38,094 bases of DNA, from positions 1 to 38,094 of the forward strand of contig QOAQ01000154.1 in NCBI GenBank assembly GCA_003972955.1. The letters are read 5' to 3'. A program made the translations under genes and the position numbers. The stretch comes from Aquificaceae bacterium (GTDB taxonomy: Bacteria; Pseudomonadota; Gammaproteobacteria; Thiotrichales; Thiotrichaceae). This document shows positions 24,603 through 35,752 of the stretch, in pieces (the stretch's first letter is position 1; each line of letters opens with the position of its first letter). Below the pieces are notes generated by a model. The model was not told the origin of the DNA, did no database searches, and worked only from the letters and a program-made list of their open reading frames with translations.

Positions 24603-24679
24603 TGGCGCGCTGGGGAGGATTCGAACCCCCGACCCTCTGGTTCGTAGCCAGATACTCTATCCAACTGAGCTACCAGCGC
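24603..24679 (-). tRNA. tRNA-Arg (anticodon ACG)
   Basis: GCGCTGG acceptor pairs CCAGCGC; TCTGG-CTACGAA-CCAGA anticodon arm; GGTTCGAATCC; encoded CCA. Confidence 0.95.
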
Positions 24680-24775: not shown

Positions 24776-24867
24776 TGGCGGAGAAGGAGGGATTCGAACC
24801 CTCGATCCGGGATAAACCAGATACTCCCTTAGCAGGGGAGCGCCTTCGGCCTCTCGGCCACTTCTCC
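24776..24867 (-). tRNA. tRNA-Ser (anticodon GCT)
   Basis: GGAGAAGTGGCCGAGAGGCCGAAGGCGCTCCCCTGCTAAGGGAG...GGTTCGAATCCCTCCTTCTCCGCCA; long variable arm. Confidence 0.95.
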
Positions 24868-25567: not shown

Positions 25568-26149
25568 TTAGTCCATATTAATAAAGTTTTGCAACATATC
25601 ATGACCATGTTGACTGAGTATAGATTCGGGGTGAAATTGTACGCCTTCGAGTGGGTATTCTTTATGGCGCACTCCCATAATCTCGTCGATTTCACCTGCT
25701 GCGGTTTCTGTCCATGCGGTTATTTCTAGGCAGTCGGGGAGTGTTTCTTTTTCGATGACAAGAGAGTGGTAGCGCGTTGCTTCAAAAGGATTGCTTAATC
25801 CTGCAAATACGCCCGTATCGGTATGGTGCATCATCGATGTTTTTCCGTGCATAACTTCTTTTGCGCGGATGATATTACCACCAAAGGCTTGTCCTATGGA
25901 TTGATGCCCTAAACATACGCCAAACAGGGGTAGTTTACCTGCATATTGTTTGATGACCTCTAGTGAGATACCTGCCTCTGTGGGTGTGCAAGGACCTGGG
26001 GAAATAATAATACGTTCGGGTGCTAGCGTATCAATATCTTCAAGGGTGATTTCATCGTTGCGTTTTACCAAAACATCAGCGCCTAACTCACCTAAGTATT
26101 GCACTAGGTTGTAGGTGAAGGAGTCGTAGTTATCAATCATTAATATCAT
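25568..26149 (-). CDS. trpG: Anthranilate synthase component II (glutamine amidotransferase)
   Basis: [51 protein letters not shown]. Confidence 0.93.
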
Positions 26150-26161
26150 TGTCTTATCCTC

Positions 26162-27643
26162 CTATCGGTGCGCGCCATCAATACCCGCAAGGGCTTGTTC
26201 GACGGCTTGAAAAATTGCACGGGCTTTGTTCATGGTTTCTTTCCATTCCATGTCTGGCACGGAGTCATAAACAATACCTGCACCTGCTTGAATATTAAGT
26301 GTGTTATCTTTAATAACAGCGGTGCGGATAGCAATAGCGGTGTCCATATTACCGTTCCAAGCAAGGTAGCCGATAGCGCCTGAGTAGATGCCACGCTTAA
26401 CAGGCTCTAACTCGTCGATAATTTCCATCGCACGTATTTTAGGTGCGCCACTGACCGTTCCTGCGGGGAAGGTAGCACGTAAAACATCTATTGCACTCAT
26501 ATTAGGAACAATTTTGCCAACAACATTAGAGACGATGTGCATCACGTGGGAGTAGCGTTCGATAAACATTTTATCAGTGAGTTTGACGCTACCAATTTGA
26601 CTCACGCGTCCTGCATCGTTACGACCCAGATCGATTAACATTAAATGTTCAGCTAATTCTTTGGGGTCGTTTAATAGCTCTTCTTCCATTGCTTTGTCGT
26701 GGGCTTTATCACGACCGCGTTTGCGTGTACCTGCAATGGGGCGCACGGTAATTTCTTCGTCTTCAAGACGTACTAATATCTCAGGTGATGATCCTATAAT
26801 TTGGAATTCATCTAAATTGAGAAAGTACATATAAGGTGACGGATTTAATGAGCGTAAGGCGCGGTATAAGTCAATAGGGGGCGCTTTAAAAGGAATGCTT
26901 AGGCGTTGCGATAAAACCACCTGCATAATATCGCCCGCGGCAATATACTCCTTTGCTTTGGCGACGGCTTCTTTAAAACCTGTTTCGGTGAAGCCTGAGC
27001 TAAAGTCATCCTCGGTTATTTTTTGTGATAATTTGGCGGGTTGATAACCTCGAATAGGCTCGCGTAATTTGCGCTCTAAAAAATTCAACCGTGATAAAGC
27101 CTGTTCGTACTGGTCTTTTTGCGCATGGACGATAAGGTACAATTTACCTTTGAGGTTATCAAATACCACGACTTCATCGGATAGCATGAGTAAAATATCA
27201 GGCGTATTGATGATGTCATCTTTGCGGGGGCTTTGTGCTAATTTTGGCTCGACATAGCGAATGGTATCATAGCCAAAATAACCTACCAGACCACCACTAA
27301 AACGAGGCAGTCCATCAATTTCAGGGACATTGATTTTCTCTTGATACGCTTCGATCCACGCAAGTGGGTCAGCAACCGTTTCTGAGCTGATGACTTTCCA
27401 GTTTTCAGTGACTTCAACTTGTTTATCACGAATACGAATAATGGTGCTGGCAGGTAAGCCTATAATGGAGTAGCGACCCCATTTTTCACCGCCATGAACG
27501 GATTCAAAGAGATAGGAAAAAGGTGCATTAGCAAGTTTGAGATAGGTACTGACAGGAGTATCAAGATCAGCTAAAACTTCGCGCATTAGGGGAATGCGAT
27601 TAAAGCCTTGCTGTAAATAATGTTCAAATGTTTCTTTTTTCAT
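26162..27643 (-). CDS. trpE: Anthranilate synthase component I
   Basis: [66 protein letters not shown]. Confidence 0.95.
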
Positions 27644-27697
27644 GGGAATAAACCTGCATAAAAAGGTAAAAAATAAGCGTAAAGGGGTGTGTTAGTG

Positions 27698-27754
27698 TTA
27701 GCTACACCATCGCCAGTTTTGTTGCCAATTTTTATACAGGTTTATTTTCATCAT
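27698..27754 (-). CDS. trpL: Trp-rich trp operon leader peptide (18 aa)
   Basis: MMKINLYKNWQQNWRWCS* with 3 Trp codons; start overlaps gph stop (TAATG), 54 nt before trpE. Confidence 0.75.
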   Translation of the reverse strand: MMKINLYKNWQQNWRWCS

Positions 27755-28434
27755 TAAGCCGTTTTAATTAAGTTGCGTAATTCTATCATAGAGTCTATCA
27801 CAGCGTCAGGCTTATAGTGACGAATATCCTCACCATGATTGTAGCCATACGACATACAGATAATATCAAAACCTGCCGCACGTGCGGCTTTAACATCTGA
27901 CTGCGAATCACCTAGCATCAGAGACTCTTCAGGCTTAACGCCTAGCTCTTTTGCACCATGTAAAAGTGGTAAAGGGTCAGGTTTTTTCTTTTCCAACGTG
28001 TCGCCACTAATGATGATTTCAAACTCATCAAAAATACCAAGATCACGTAGAATAGGGTGAGTAAAACGCTCCACTTTATTGGTGATACAACCAATTTTCA
28101 TTCCCGTTGATTGAAGAAAGGCTAAACCTTCTTTAACACCAGGATAAAGCGTACTGCGCTTGGCGTTGTTGACAGCATACAGCTTTTCAAAAATAGGCAT
28201 TGCTTTTGCAAAGATTGCCTCATCGTGAGGCGCATCAAGGTCATTTGCGATAGCACGTTCCATTAAGCGTACAACCCCATTGCCAACCCACTGACGAATC
28301 CTTGGCTCACCACGTTCAGGCAAGCCAATTTCTTTGAGCGTTTCTTCAACACACCAAGCAAGATCAGGGACGGAGTCAACCAGTGTTCCGTCCACGTCGA
28401 TCATAATGAGTTTTGGATTAAATAGTTTACTCAT
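27754..28434 (-). CDS. gph: Phosphoglycolate phosphatase
   Basis: LIMIDVDGTLVDSVPDLAWCVEETL; HAD motifs; rpe-gph synteny. Confidence 0.93.
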   Translation of the reverse strand: MSKLFNPKLIMIDVDGTLVDSVPDLAWCVEETLKEIGLPERGEPRIRQWVGNGVVRLMERAIANDLDAPHDEAIFAKAMPIFEKLYAVNNAKRSTLYPGVKEGLAFLQSTGMKIGCITNKVERFTHPILRDLGIFDEFEIIISGDTLEKKKPDPLPLLHGAKELGVKPEESLMLGDSQSDVKAARAAGFDIICMSYGYNHGEDIRHYKPDAVIDSMIELRNLIKTA

Positions 28435-29244: not shown

Positions 29245-30168
29245 TTATTTTTTTAGAAACGGATCATAGCTCCTAGCATACTTTTTTGACTCTTTAATCA
29301 TAAAGTCTTGAAATTGCTTGGCGGCAGGTGGTAGTTTTTTATCCTTTCTCTTAACGATATGCCAATGACGTTGAATGGGGAGTCGATTAACATCAAGAAT
29401 CACCAATTTTTTTGCCTCTAACTCAAGTTTTATACTGTGTAGAGAGACGATTCCTAAGCCTAGCCCTGCTATAACAGCATGTTTGATGGCTTCATTGCTT
29501 CCCATTTCTAATGTGCTTTTTAGTTCTTGATGTTGTGCTTTGAAAAAAGAGTTGATGGTTGCGCGTGTGCCTGAGCCTTGTTCTCGTACAATAAATTCAT
29601 GTGTGGCAATATCTTTGAATGAGATATTGCGTTTATTTACGCAGGGGTGGTCGGTATGTGCGATAACACACAGCGGGTTGGGAATTAAAGGTTCAGACAC
29701 CAGCCCTGATTTTGGTGGTGGCTCGCCCATTAAGACAATATCAGGTTCAAAATTTTGCAGTTGTTTAATTAATTTTTCTCGGTTAGTAATTTTTAGCACA
29801 ACCTTAATGTTTTTATTTTCTTTGGAGAAACAAGCAATCATCTGGGTGATGAGGTGATTGGAGGTAGTTGTTGCCGATACTTTTATGCGTCCTCGGTGTA
29901 AATCCTTTATTTCATGGGTTGCTTCTATTAAGTCGTCATAATCAATTGTGAGTTTATGGCTGTACTGGTGAAAATCTTTTCCTGTTTCTGTTAACGCGAT
30001 ACGCTTTCCTTGTCGTTCAAATAATACAATTCCCGTATTTGATTCCAGTTGTTTTATTTGCATGGAAACCGCAGGTTGGGTCATATGTAATTTCTCTGCG
30101 GCTAAGGAATAGCTACCTAATTGAACAATCGCATCCACGATTTGTAGTTGTCTAATGGTTATATGCAT
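29245..30168 (-). CDS. cbbR: LysR-type regulator, CbbR-like
   Basis: MHITIRQLQIVDAIVQLGSYSLAAEKLHMTQPAVSMQIKQLESNTGIVLFERQGKRI; divergent from cbbM; start at MHITIRQ preferred over track 30177. Confidence 0.85.
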   Translation of the reverse strand: MHITIRQLQIVDAIVQLGSYSLAAEKLHMTQPAVSMQIKQLESNTGIVLFERQGKRIALTETGKDFHQYSHKLTIDYDDLIEATHEIKDLHRGRIKVSATTTSNHLITQMIACFSKENKNIKVVLKITNREKLIKQLQNFEPDIVLMGEPPPKSGLVSEPLIPNPLCVIAHTDHPCVNKRNISFKDIATHEFIVREQGSGTRATINSFFKAQHQELKSTLEMGSNEAIKHAVIAGLGLGIVSLHSIKLELEAKKLVILDVNRLPIQRHWHIVKRKDKKLPPAAKQFQDFMIKESKKYARSYDPFLKK

Positions 30169-30176
30169 AATCACCA

Positions 30177-30223
30177 TTATAAGTTTTTCTTATAAAAAGT
30201 TAAGTTAAAATAGCTTTTACTTA
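30177..30223. promoter_or_regulatory. Probable CbbR operator region (two palindromes)
   Basis: TTATAAG-ttttt-CTTATAA (30177-30195) and TAAGTtAAAA-tagc-TTTTACTTA (30201-30223), followed by a TATAGT -10-like box at 30237. Confidence 0.6.
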
Positions 30224-30313
30224 TTAATAATTTCAGTATAGTGTGCTCATGTTTTAGAGTTGATCGTTATTTTTACAATATTAATGAATCATTACTACTC
30301 TAATCACCCCAAT

Positions 30314-30341
30314 ACAGATAACCTTATCTGTTTGTTTTTTA
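30314..30341 (+). other. Terminator-like hairpin + U-tract in cbbM leader
   Basis: acagata-acct-tatctgt followed by ttgttttttat, just upstream of SD gaaaggag. Confidence 0.5.
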
Positions 30342-30360
30342 TATTTGAAAGGAGTTCCAA

Positions 30361-31737
30361 ATGGATCAGTCGGGTCGTTATGCAGACTTAAGTCTTGATG
30401 AAGATACGTTAATTGCAGAAGGGAAGCATATTCTTGTTGCTTACACAATGGAGCCAAATGGCCCTGGTTACTTAGAAGCAGCAGCTCACTTTGCAGCAGA
30501 GTCTTCAACCGGTACAAACGTAGAAGTTTCTACCACAGACGATTTCACCAAAGGCGTTGACGCTTTAGTTTATGAAATCGACGAAGCAAAAGGCATTATG
30601 AAAATTGCCTACCCTAACGAATTATTTGACCGTAATGTAATAGACGGTCGTGCAATGATCGTTTCATTCCTAACACTTGTTATTGGTAATAACCAAGGCA
30701 TGGGTGATATTGCAAACGCTCAAATGCAAGATTTTTATATGCCACCTGCAATGCTTGCATTATTTGATGGCCCTGCAAAATCAATTAATGATCTATGGAC
30801 ATTATTAGGTCGTGATCATGAAAACGGTGGTTACATCGCTGGTACTATTATCAAGCCTAAGCTTGGTTTACGTCCTGAGCCATTTGCTGAAGCAGCTTAC
30901 CAGTTCTGGCTAGGTGGTGACTTTATCAAGAATGATGAGCCACAAGGAAACCAAGTTTTCTGTCCACTTAAGAAAGTACTTCCTCTCGTACATGATGCAA
31001 TGAAACGTGCACAAGATGAGACGGGTGAAGCTAAACTATTCTCTTTGAATATCACAGCTGATGACCATTACGAAATGTGTGCTCGTGCTGATTTCGGATT
31101 AGAAACATTTGGTGAAGATGCACCTCGTTTAGCCTTCTTGGTAGACGGTTTTGTGGGTGGCCCTGGTATGGTGACAACAGCACGTCGCCAGTACCCATCA
31201 CAATATTTACATTACCATCGTGCAGGTCATGGCATGATTACATCACCTTCATCTAAGCGTGGTTACACAGCTTATATCTTAGCTAAAATGTCTCGTTTAA
31301 TGGGTGCTTCTGGTATCCACGTAGGCACAATGGGTTATGGTAAAATGGAAGGTGGTGCTGATGATAAGATCATCGCATACATGATTGAGCGTGATGAGTG
31401 TCAAGGGCCTTTCTACTACCAGAAATGGCATGGAATGAAGCCAACGACTCCAATCGTTTCTGGTGGCATGAACGCACTTCGTCTACCTGGATTCTTCGAG
31501 AACCTAGGTCACGGTAATGTAATCAATACCTCTGGTGGTGGTTCATACGGTCACATCGACAGCCCTGCTGACGGTGCTATCTCATTGAAGCAATCTTACC
31601 AGTGTTACACTGAAGGTGCTGACCCTATTGAATTTGCAAAAGAGCATAAAGAATTTGCACGTGCATTTGAGTCATTCCCAGGTGATGCTGACCAGATATT
31701 CCCAGGTTGGAGAGATAAGCTAGGCGTTCATAAGTAA
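30361..31737 (+). CDS. cbbM: Ribulose-1,5-bisphosphate carboxylase/oxygenase form II
   Basis: [12 protein letters not shown]...[77 protein letters not shown]. Confidence 0.97.
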
Positions 31738-31770
31738 ACAATTATTACTTTTGAGTTTTTAGGTTAAGAG

Positions 31771-31798
31771 AAAGCCCCGTTTTTCGGGGCTTTTTTAT
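31771..31798 (+). terminator. Rho-independent terminator after cbbM
   Basis: aaagccccg-tttt-tcggggcttttttatt. Confidence 0.9.
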
Positions 31799-32043
31799 TA
31801 AACTATTCATTGTTTTAATAGTTTCTAAAGCCTGTTTTATTAAAAAAGACATGCTAATGGAAACTATTTACATGGATTAGGAACGCGCATGGAATAACTT
31901 CCAGAATTTCTAACACAGAATTTTTATTTCAGATTAGATGAGCTCATAAGGCGCATAGTTACTCTACGCAACGAATGAGATCATTTAAGCTAGAGATTGG
32001 GAAGTTGTTTTATGCTCATTCCCCAAATACAGGATAAAGCGCT

Positions 32044-32853
32044 ATGAGCGACATTGATATTGAACAATACAATATAACAGAAGAACCTTTTTACCATGCA
32101 CAGGGTGATGAAGTTAAATGGTATCAAGCAGCCTACGATGCACGTCTGCCTGTTATGGTTAAAGGGCCGACGGGTTGTGGTAAATCCCGTTTTATCGAGC
32201 ACATGGCCTATAAACTTGGCAAGCCATTAATTACCGTTGCTTGTAATGAAGATATGACCGCCTCCGATTTAGTCGGTCGTTATTTGCTTGATGCGAATGG
32301 TACACGCTGGTTAGATGGCCCTTTGACGATTGCCGCTCGTATCGGCGCAATTTGTTACTTGGATGAAGTGGTGGAAGCACGTCAAGATACTACCGTTGTT
32401 ATTCACCCCTTAACCGATCACCGCCGTACATTACCTTTGGATAAAAAAGGTGAGACAGTCACTGCACACCCTGATTTTCAATTAGTGATTTCTTATAATC
32501 CTGGTTATCAAAGTTTGATGAAAGAACTAAAGCAATCCACTAAACAGCGTTTTGTCGCAATGGACTTTGACTATGCTCCCGCAAAAGTTGAGGAAGGCAT
32601 TGTTGAAAAAGAAGCAGGTGTTGACGCTGAAACGGCAAAAAAACTGGTTAAAATTGGTGCTGTTGCTCGAAATTTAAAGGGTCATGGCTTAGACGAAGGT
32701 ATCTCTACCCGTTTATTAGTTTATGCAGCAAGCCTAATGAATCAAGGTATCAATGCACAAGATGCTTGTAAAATGGCACTAGTACGTCCTATTACGGATG
32801 ATGCAGATATTCGTCAAACCTTAGATCATGCTATTGATACTATTTTTGCATAA
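32044..32853 (+). CDS. cbbQ: RuBisCO activation AAA+ ATPase CbbQ (MoxR family)
   Basis: RLPVMVKGPTGCGKSRFIEHMAYKLGKPLITVACNEDMTASDLVGRYLLD; ICYLDEVVEARQDTTVVIHPLTDHRRTLP. Confidence 0.93.
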   Translation: MSDIDIEQYNITEEPFYHAQGDEVKWYQAAYDARLPVMVKGPTGCGKSRFIEHMAYKLGKPLITVACNEDMTASDLVGRYLLDANGTRWLDGPLTIAARIGAICYLDEVVEARQDTTVVIHPLTDHRRTLPLDKKGETVTAHPDFQLVISYNPGYQSLMKELKQSTKQRFVAMDFDYAPAKVEEGIVEKEAGVDAETAKKLVKIGAVARNLKGHGLDEGISTRLLVYAASLMNQGINAQDACKMALVRPITDDADIRQTLDHAIDTIFA

Positions 32854-32868
32854 GGAACTCTTTAGTAT

Positions 32869-32921
32869 CCGCATCCTTCACTTCGACTTCGCTCAGTACA
32901 GGCGATAAGCTTAGGGTGCGG
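32869..32921. repeat. REP-like element between cbbQ and cbbO
   Basis: ccgcatccttcacttcgacttcgctcagtacaggcgataagcttagggtgcgg; same family as 25043-25091. Confidence 0.75.
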
Positions 32922-33017
32922 TAGTAAAGCACAAAACCACAGATTGATACTATTAGCAACTATCTGAGCAGTTATCATTATTTAACTGTAAATATCTAAA
33001 AAACCAGTAAAAATAAT

Positions 33018-35321
33018 ATGACCACTATAGCCGAAGAAAAAACGCTCCCCCCAGAGCTTCTCGCGTTTCGTAATAAGCTTAAATGTAGTTTTGAGCAGAT
33101 TGATGATGTCTTTGAAGACTGTATTCGTGACGCACAAAGGCGATTAACCAATAAAGGCGTTGAAGATTACCTAAAAGGCGCATCACTTATTTGTATGATC
33201 GGTCGTGGTGTCGAGCCAGTTTTACAATTTATGGAAGTTATTCCTGAGTTGGCAGGTAGGATTGGTGAGGACGTTATCAAGCAGGTTGCTGATGGTGTGT
33301 GGGAAGTGTCTCGTACACCGAATGGTGTGGCGATTCCTCCTTTTATGGCAGTTTTGCAAGAGGCAGGTCGTCGCCTTGGTAGTCAAGATCAGTTCAATCA
33401 TTATATGGATATTCTTTTCGATATGATGGCGCGTACCACAGGCTCAATTCATGGTCATCACACCACCATGCCAAGCCCTGGTCTGCCTGACTTATTAAAT
33501 CAAATACCTTACTTATTAAGCCAAATTTCGCTCGACGGTTTACGCAACTGGGTAGATTACGGCATTCGCAACTACAATAATCACCCTGAGCGTCAAAAAG
33601 ACTATTTTACCCTGCAATCTGCCGATGCGCGGGCGATGTTACAGCGTGAGCGTCATGGTACGCTGTTTGCAGATAATGAGCGAAATCTGGCTACTTACCT
33701 GCAAGCCTTGTGGAAAGATAAAGATTACCTAGTGCCATATTCAACAGGCTTTGATGAGCTACGCCAACCTGTACCATATTACGACAAGCTCGGTATGCGT
33801 ATCCCTGATGTCTATGATGATGTATTGGATAGCGAAGGAAATACGCTAGTAAAAGGTATTGATCGTTACCGTGCAGTGTTAGCACATATGGTGGCGCATC
33901 GCCGTTGGAGTGGGCAAATGGTGGCGGATAACTTTAGTCCATTTCAGCGCATTTCTATCGAAATTTTAGAAGACTCACGGGTTGAGTATCTCGCCATACA
34001 AGAATATCCAGGCTTGAGAAATTTATGGCTTTCTTTGCATCCTGTCCCTGTCGAAGGTGAATGTAATGAAAAAGGTGTTTCCTGTATACGCCATCGTCTT
34101 GCAATGTTGTCTTATGCGATTTTAAATAAAGATCACGGCTATCAAGATAAAGATATTCTAATGACTGTTAAAGCATTTCACGAGTTGATGCAGAAGTCGC
34201 AAGAAACAGGTGAGCCAACAGCAACAAAAGATATGATAGACCTCGGTTTATCTTATATCACTAGAACCCGCCGCCAAGAAGATCAAGCCGCACGGGTTTA
34301 TTTTGACAATACCATTGTTGATTATCGTGATGATAATCGTCGCCTGTGGGTGTTTATCGAAGATGGTGATGAAGAAGAGCAGTTTGATAATAAACCACAA
34401 AAAACGGAGGAGGAAGAGCTACATGCACTGCCACCACGTCATTATCCAGAATGGGACTATAATACAAAGAGTTACCGTCCAGACTGGGTGAGTTTATATG
34501 AAAGTTTACACCCTTCTGGAAACCCCGCCGATATTGATCGTATACTCGAAAAGCACGCGGCATTGGCGAAAAAGCTAAAACAAATTCTTGATATGTTGAA
34601 GCCACAACATTATGTGCGTGTACGTTATCAAGAAGAAGGAAGCGAGCTTGATTTAGATGTGGCAATTCGTTCCTTAATTGATTTCAAAAGTGGCGCACAA
34701 CCTGACCCGCGTATCAACATGAGCCACAAACACGATGGGCGCGATATAGCCGTGACCTTATTGCTCGATTTATCCGCATCACTTGAGGATATACCACACG
34801 GCAGTACGCAAACCTTATTAGAACTTAGTCAAGAAGCGGTGTCTTTATTAGGTTGGGCGATTGATAAATTAGATGATAAATTCTCCATTGGTGGCTTCTT
34901 CTCTAATACACGCCATGATGTGAAATATCTACACATGAAAGGCTTTACTGAGTCTTGGGATGATCAAGTAAAAGCACGTATCGCCAAGATGGAAGCAGGC
35001 TTTTCAACCCGTATGGGCGCAGCAATACGCCATGCAGGTCATTATCTCGGCAAGCAAAAAGCAGATAAAAAATTACTCTTGATCCTAACCGATGGCGAGC
35101 CTGCTGATATTGATGTAGACGATGCGAAGTTACTGATTAAAGATGCCTATAAAGCCACTACAGAGCTAGATATGGATGGTATTTATACGCATTGTATTAG
35201 CCTAGACCCAAATGCTGATGAGTACGTTAGTGATATATTTGGATCACATTACACAGTGATTGATAATGTCAGTCGTTTGCCTGAAAAATTACCGCAATTA
35301 TTTTTGTCATTGACAAAATAG
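33018..35321 (+). CDS. cbbO: RuBisCO activation VWA-domain protein CbbO
   Basis: C-terminal VWA/MIDAS DGRDIAVTLLLDLSASLED; SIGGFFSNTRHDVKY; LILTDGEPADIDV; adjacent to cbbQ. Confidence 0.92.
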   Translation: MTTIAEEKTLPPELLAFRNKLKCSFEQIDDVFEDCIRDAQRRLTNKGVEDYLKGASLICMIGRGVEPVLQFMEVIPELAGRIGEDVIKQVADGVWEVSRTPNGVAIPPFMAVLQEAGRRLGSQDQFNHYMDILFDMMARTTGSIHGHHTTMPSPGLPDLLNQIPYLLSQISLDGLRNWVDYGIRNYNNHPERQKDYFTLQSADARAMLQRERHGTLFADNERNLATYLQALWKDKDYLVPYSTGFDELRQPVPYYDKLGMRIPDVYDDVLDSEGNTLVKGIDRYRAVLAHMVAHRRWSGQMVADNFSPFQRISIEILEDSRVEYLAIQEYPGLRNLWLSLHPVPVEGECNEKGVSCIRHRLAMLSYAILNKDHGYQDKDILMTVKAFHELMQKSQETGEPTATKDMIDLGLSYITRTRRQEDQAARVYFDNTIVDYRDDNRRLWVFIEDGDEEEQFDNKPQKTEEEELHALPPRHYPEWDYNTKSYRPDWVSLYESLHPSGNPADIDRILEKHAALAKKLKQILDMLKPQHYVRVRYQEEGSELDLDVAIRSLIDFKSGAQPDPRINMSHKHDGRDIAVTLLLDLSASLEDIPHGSTQTLLELSQEAVSLLGWAIDKLDDKFSIGGFFSNTRHDVKYLHMKGFTESWDDQVKARIAKMEAGFSTRMGAAIRHAGHYLGKQKADKKLLLILTDGEPADIDVDDAKLLIKDAYKATTELDMDGIYTHCISLDPNADEYVSDIFGSHYTVIDNVSRLPEKLPQLFLSLTK

Positions 35322-35347
35322 TGTTTTTTTTACGTTGAGATGTTTGA

Positions 35348-35752
35348 ATGAAAAATACCATTAAACTCACTATTCCTTTTTCCTTTAAAGGCGTAGATTA
35401 CAAACCCTCTTCAGTGATTGATCTGGATACTTTTCTTTTAGGCGATCAGAATTTAGATGCCTTATTTCAAATAGTAGCCACTGAAAATAAAATTAGTAAC
35501 TACTCGTATGAGTATGAAGTGCTAGAAGCATCACCTAAAATTTTTAGTGACCCTACCGGCATGGCATGTGATTTTTTATCGGGTGATTCTTTTGATTTCG
35601 AAGGCTTTAAGCATTATAAAAATAAAGCACAAGCATTGACTATTTTGCAAGATATAGCCAAAAACACCTTGGAAATTGATGATCTTGAAGCGCATCAAAA
35701 CTTAAAGCAAGCATTGTGGGAAGCGTATAAAGCAGGGCGAGATATGGTGTAA
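35348..35752 (+). CDS. Uncharacterised 134-aa protein downstream of cbbO
   Basis: Intact ORF 26 nt after cbbO with upstream gttgagatg; no family recognised. Confidence 0.65.
   Translation: MKNTIKLTIPFSFKGVDYKPSSVIDLDTFLLGDQNLDALFQIVATENKISNYSYEYEVLEASPKIFSDPTGMACDFLSGDSFDFEGFKHYKNKAQALTILQDIAKNTLEIDDLEAHQNLKQALWEAYKAGRDMV

Follow-up and report, generated by a model that had tools for sequence, protein, structure and literature searches.

A tryptophan-codon leader ORF with a predicted Shine-Dalgarno-sequestering helix upstream of trpE in Thiotrichaceae

The gph-trpE junction and its leader ORF

The stretch of DNA analysed here (the window, 38,094 nt) comes from a Thiotrichaceae MAG of 1.78 Mb that is 70% complete and whose nearest named relatives are MAGs labelled Leucothrix, Cocleimonas and Thiotrichaceae. 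On the minus strand, a cbbR-like regulator, rpe, gph, a short ORF, trpE, trpG and an RDD-family protein follow one another in this order (Table 1). NCBIfam models supported the gene names gph and trpE that had been assigned in a preliminary description of the sequence, and identified rpe (TIGR01163). The spacing between trpE and trpG is 12 nt, and the two genes are probably co-transcribed. The rpe-gph-trpE segment adjoins a carbon-fixation cluster (29245–35752) containing the cbbR-like regulator, form II RuBisCO (PRK13475), a CbbQ-type AAA protein and a large VWA-domain protein. Genes for tRNA-Arg(ACG) and tRNA-Ser(GCT) are located downstream of the trp genes, at 24603–24679 and 24776–24867.

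The short ORF directly precedes the gene for the first step of Trp synthesis. Its extent, its three Trp codons in 18 and its distance of 54 nt from the leader stop to the trpE ATG (27643) were all found in the sequence as the preliminary description had stated. The end of gph reads GCTTAATG, in which a single A is shared by the gph stop codon TAA (27756–27754) and the first leader ATG (27754); a second in-frame ATG at 27751 is an alternative start. The leader has no good Shine-Dalgarno sequence (SD) of its own. Among the 446 ATG ORFs of 8–30 aa in the window, at least three Trp residues occur in 3 and a WxW arrangement in 2. A pattern search for exact WRW leaders in the source genome returned the trpE copy only, and a search for a second such leader with two mismatches allowed gave 29 matches versus 23 in the control, which is close to chance.

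The segment TGG CGA TGG (27715–27707 in the window) is nearly invariant in nucleotides in most leaders of those families that have WRW, the Arg codon being almost always CGA. The tRNA expected to read this codon is tRNA-Arg(ACG). Slow decoding might account for the invariance, as might base pairing between CGATGG and a segment further downstream.

Table 1. Features of the gph-trpG segment of the window, with the support for each.
Feature	Position	Strand	Support or remark
gph, phosphoglycolate phosphatase	27754..28434	-	PRK13222.1-2, TIGR01449; stop overlaps leader start
-10-like TAGACT, extended TGTGATAGACT, candidate own promoter	27792..27797	-	consensus match only
Trp leader ORF MMKINLYKNWQQNWRWCS, 18 aa	27754..27698	-	kept in Thiotrichaceae and further families
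Anti-SD arm AATAAACCTGTATAAAAA, inside leader ORF	27729..27746	-	fold, duplex, covariation
Leader Trp codons W10, W14, W16	27727-27725, 27715-27713, 27709-27707	-	
Inner weak hairpin GGTGT...ACACC (27708-27704 / 27690-27686)	27686..27708	-	fold; last Trp codon/stop region
SD-side arm TTTTTATGCAGGTTTATT, holds trpE SD AGG at 27655-27653	27647..27664	-	fold, duplex, covariation
trpE, anthranilate synthase component I, predicted regulated gene	26162..27643	-	TIGR00564, 577 bits (cutoff 517.7)
trpG/pabA, glutamine amidotransferase subunit	25568..26149	-	trpG_papA TIGR00566

Predicted pairing between the leader and the trpE Shine-Dalgarno sequence

Folding of the gph-trpE region, a check proposed in the preliminary description, brought out a strong leader/SD helix that the description had missed. 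The predicted folding energy of the region (161 nt) is -30.9 kcal/mol (z = -2.83), with 2 of 200 shuffles equal or better, and its minimum free energy (MFE) structure contains a main helix of 18 bp in which the two arms listed in Table 1 pair nearly perfectly. The anti-SD arm spans leader nucleotides 9–26, so that its 3' end lies 1 nt ahead of the first Trp codon; the SD AGG pairs with CCU at leader nucleotides 15–17, 10 nt before that codon. In the free window leader the trpE SD is predicted to be completely hidden (P(SD unpaired) 0.00), and several further genes of the window likewise have a predicted hidden SD. These helix structures are thermodynamic predictions. The weak GGTGT...ACACC stem that had been singled out earlier does exist; it is not the main element, however, and sits in the loop of the 18-bp helix. 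Comparable inner stems are present in several relatives.

The trpE upstream regions of 52 Thiotrichaceae loci were compared, covering genera g1 to g8 with the window in g1 (g1a being the window plus L003). A strict filter requiring a terminal W-cluster recovered a W-cluster leader in 35 of the 52 loci. By eye, leader and helix are present in about 40 of 52, single-Trp and less regular forms included; some family leaders (L012, L020, L025 and L030) have a single Trp only, and 11 loci contain no recognisable leader or element. Conservation of the ORF and its Trp codons in relatives, on which the preliminary description had made its proposal depend, is borne out by these counts.

The sequence of the arms varies between genera while their complementarity is kept. 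The arms are complementary in the window (AACCTGTATAAAAA/TTTTTATGCAGGTT), in g2 (TTCCGAATAAAACG/CGTTTTATTTGGAA) and in g4 (CAATAAAACAA/TTGTTTTATTG), and arms taken from different genera do not pair. Across 35 arm pairs, two-sided compensatory changes were found in 12 of 15 base pairs, and 84.6% of cells are paired versus 61.4% in shuffles; sliding the arm alignment by one column reduced pairing to about 50%, and it reached at most 53% when slid. The covariation alignment was registered by the pairing itself, and a fairer energy test was therefore performed in which the 5' arm is fixed by the first Trp codon only, the 30 nt before that codon being compared with the 30 nt before trpE. In this Trp-anchored test, the energies were -12.8 kcal/mol for a locus's own segments, -6.95 kcal/mol for between-genera swaps and -6.8 kcal/mol for dinucleotide shuffles; the p value of about 1e-16 is only a guide because the genomes are not independent.

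The trpE SD is more open in leaderless loci, P(SD unpaired) being 0.13 in 40 leader-bearing loci versus 0.48 in the 11 leaderless ones (p = 5e-6); a hidden SD therefore goes with the leader. The loop between the helix arms is very variable in both length and content. This comparative sequence evidence argues strongly that the leader element is real and functional. In nine g5 loci (L007, L008, L010, L011, L014, L032, L033, L035 and L036), a strongly conserved small hairpin of the GTCTTTTGAAAAAAAGAC type directly follows the leader stop codon, without a U-tract.

Promoter-like boxes were identified as consensus matches and mark candidate starts only; scanning of this interval in the window for terminator and promoter consensus sequences yielded chance-level counts. 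The TAGACT box of the window falls within the 3' end of gph and precedes the second leader ATG by 40 nt. Most leaders of g1a, g2, g6 and g8 have TAGACT (once TAAACT) 27–43 nt before the leader ATG, inside gph where gph abuts and in other sequence where it does not, and no -10-like box was found in g7 and some other members. In most g5 loci, TAAACT, TAAAAT or TACACT is placed 6–9 nt before the leader ATG (for example in L007, L008, L010 and L036), which suggests that g5 leaders would be nearly leaderless transcripts with the Trp sensor as their first ORF. Six g2 genomes (L019, L039, L040, L043, L044 and L047) retain the TAGACT promoter-like box and have trpE behind a different upstream sequence with neither a leader nor an SD helix; rearrangement seems to have removed the attenuator from these genomes.

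Ribosome position and probable control of trpE translation

The effect of a ribosome on the leader was modelled by making a stretch of RNA unpairable, from 13 nt upstream of the P site to 15 nt past the first base of that site. In footprint-constrained folding of the window leader, the SD is open with the A site at codons 3–10 (0.60) or 11 (0.59) and closed from codon 12 on (0.03, then 0.00), codons 14 and 16 and the stop codon included. The outcome is identical for 5' footprints of 10–18 nt. The first Trp is codon 10 and thus sits near the downstream edge of the SD-release zone. Among the 35 family leaders, the modelled ribosome frees the SD in 28 when placed at the first Trp codon and in 7 when placed at the stop codon. 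In L004–L006, which belong to the same genus, the first Trp codon is too far downstream, past the release zone for one stalled ribosome, so that a second ribosome would have to initiate at the leader start or queue close to it.

The leader is very probably a cis-acting, ribosome-mediated translational attenuator of trpE. Computation shows the leader and the helix, the coevolution of the helix across genera and its association with the leader, the scarcity of terminators, and the codon position at which a modelled ribosome frees the SD; that ribosomes really stall, which way trpE responds, where the promoter lies and whether polarity occurs are what we infer. In free mRNA, or when the leader is read fast, the segment before the first Trp codon would pair with the trpE SD and block initiation. 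Under a shortage of charged tRNA-Trp, a ribosome would stall with the first Trp codon (codon 10) in its A site and its footprint over the anti-SD arm, exposing the SD and allowing trpE, probably together with trpG, to be translated. When Trp is plentiful, the ribosome would reach the stop codon, the helix would re-form and trpE would be turned off. Untranslated trpE mRNA may then face Rho or decay; Rho polarity is plausible in this scheme and not required by it.

Classical transcription attenuation of the E. coli type, in which full translation of the leader leads to a terminator and stalling to an antiterminator, would also account for a leader with clustered Trp codons, and the window does have a T-rich run between the leader and trpE. 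This explanation is nevertheless improbable. No terminator between leader and trpE was scored in the window interval, in agreement with the preliminary description, which had noted no obvious strong GC-rich hairpin plus U-tract. A scan that detects the E. coli trp terminator, its positive control, found hairpins resembling terminators in 2 of the 35 family leaders (0.5 expected) and in 1 of 33 leaders of other families; isolated terminator-like matches are those in L004 and L023. Rfam scans, at the gathering threshold and with E up to 5, returned no Trp_leader or other family at this locus, chance matches only, and for the window no T-box, its matches being the two tRNAs only. Moreover, the coevolving helix ends on the SD beside the ATG and no U-tract follows it.

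A second explanation is that the primary switch is Rho-dependent attenuation in the leader or early trpE, the helix being a by-product. The lack of an intrinsic terminator is compatible with this, and there is a precedent in E. coli toiL-topAI, where translation is under the control of a uORF and its repression is followed by intragenic Rho termination (PMC12121999). In topAI, however, Rho is a consequence and not the switch, and such a role as secondary amplifier fits translational attenuation as well. The precise coevolution of the anti-SD and SD arms is in turn explained by control of initiation, which leaves Rho as the primary switch a slim chance. Of the non-canonical or Rho-dependent mechanism contemplated in the preliminary description, the non-canonical part is supported, most likely as SD sequestration, whereas Rho would be at most secondary, by polarity.

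The preliminary description also considered leader translation to be coupled to gph. The overlap is real and recurs in other genera: an upstream ORF touches or overlaps the leader in several g1, g2, g6 and g7 loci, as it does in the window, and no such ORF is found in most others. Coupling is not essential, because the leader persists in many relatives without an abutting ORF; in the window, where the leader lacks a good SD of its own, coupling to gph may help. It is very improbable that the leader ORF senses no Trp and serves mainly to bring ribosomes to trpE, by coupling or by reinitiation from gph: the TAATG overlap and its counterparts in related genomes fit such a role, as does the general function in reinitiation that has been proposed for leader ORFs (PMC4833913), but Trp codons persist in 35 leaders that differ widely in sequence, as well as in leaders from 25 further families, the leader is retained where no ORF abuts, tens of nucleotides separate its stop codon from trpE, and a strongly hidden SD would oppose simple reinitiation.

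Known leaders and other Gammaproteobacteria

The trp leader is the standard example of attenuation at the level of transcription: in E. coli, trpL, a short leader ORF with clustered Trp codons upstream of trpE, senses charged tRNA-Trp. The window leader resembles trpL in having a sensor of clustered Trp codons. It differs in that no terminator/antiterminator pair is present, the predicted output is access to the trpE SD and Rfam finds no match.

Translational attenuation of the proposed kind has its closest outline in erm-type attenuators, which comprise a leader ORF and a helix hiding a downstream SD that is exposed by a stalled ribosome (PMC13236596). In the window, too, a downstream SD is sequestered by pairing with the leader region, and a pause at the sensor codon is predicted to free the SD while a pause at the stop codon is not. 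The predicted signal, in contrast, is a lack of charged tRNA rather than a drug-bound ribosome, and the regulated gene is a biosynthetic one. Mycobacterial polycysteine leaderless uORFs are reported to act by translation attenuation of biosynthetic genes (Canestrari 2020, cited in PMC13236596). They share with the window leader a short upstream ORF containing codons for the amino acid concerned, and g5 leaders would be near-leaderless too; the differences are that Trp and trpE in Gammaproteobacteria are involved here and that a defined, coevolving anti-SD arm lies inside the ORF. For the actinobacterial LEU element, the run of Leu codons itself is predicted to pair with the leuA SD, with a pseudoknot, and classical, terminator-containing trp attenuators have been predicted in Actinobacteria (PMC1262725). 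The LEU element is similar in its predicted pairing of an end-product leader ORF with the SD of the first biosynthetic gene, whereas in the window it is the arm just upstream of the Trp codons, and not the codon run, that pairs with the SD. Attenuation of Pseudomonas putida trpE and trpGDC has been reported (Olekhnovich and Gussin 2001, cited in PMC8297930 and PMC13367071). It likewise concerns a stand-alone trpE in a gammaproteobacterium and may be the same device.

The principle is thus already known from erm leaders, mycobacterial cys uORFs and the LEU element; for trp, no description of translational attenuation of trpE was found in the literature searched, outside which most subscription papers lie. 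If the reading is true, a large part of Gammaproteobacteria shares the Trp-codon sensor but uses SD exposure as its output, and trp regulation offers a natural series on how attenuation switches between transcription and translation. It would also explain why terminator-based searches and Rfam miss such leaders. Translational attenuation further gives simple and precise mutational predictions.

The strict filter was also applied to 102 other gammaproteobacterial trpE loci, where it recovered W-cluster leaders in 33 loci from 25 families. The SD is paired to the leader in the MFE structure of 28 of these 33 (21 families), against about 11 under the null; L148, L149 and L156, in which it is not so paired, are probably chance ORFs. 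The Trp-anchored energy test was positive for these other families as well (-14.8 vs -9.4). In the ribosome model, a single ribosome placed at the first Trp codon is enough to open the SD in just 4 of the 33 leaders, so the mechanism in other families is less certain than that of the window; an added initiating ribosome raises the mean P(SD unpaired) from 0.27 to 0.43. In all, at least 21 sampled families besides Thiotrichaceae have Trp-rich leaders with a predicted sequestered SD, and in the model a second ribosome is usually needed there.

A broader view, which we regard as evenly poised between right and wrong, is that translational attenuation is the general trp control of non-enteric Gammaproteobacteria with a stand-alone trpE. 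The older form would have its anti-SD arm near the leader start, held open by queued or initiating ribosomes; it would have been compacted in Thiotrichaceae to a single-ribosome switch and become near-leaderless in g5.

No comparable Trp-cluster leader was found upstream of trpE in SUP05/Thioglobus, Moraxella or Psychrobacter, and occasional short W-containing ORFs before Moraxella trpE were set aside. Very Trp-rich short ORFs precede trpE in L074, an Endozoicomonas record (MSHSVSSLPTFWRWQSWP), whose fold does not pair the leader region with the trpE upstream region, and in L076 (VTLLITSGIQWSWRWRRWQR), whose fold does.
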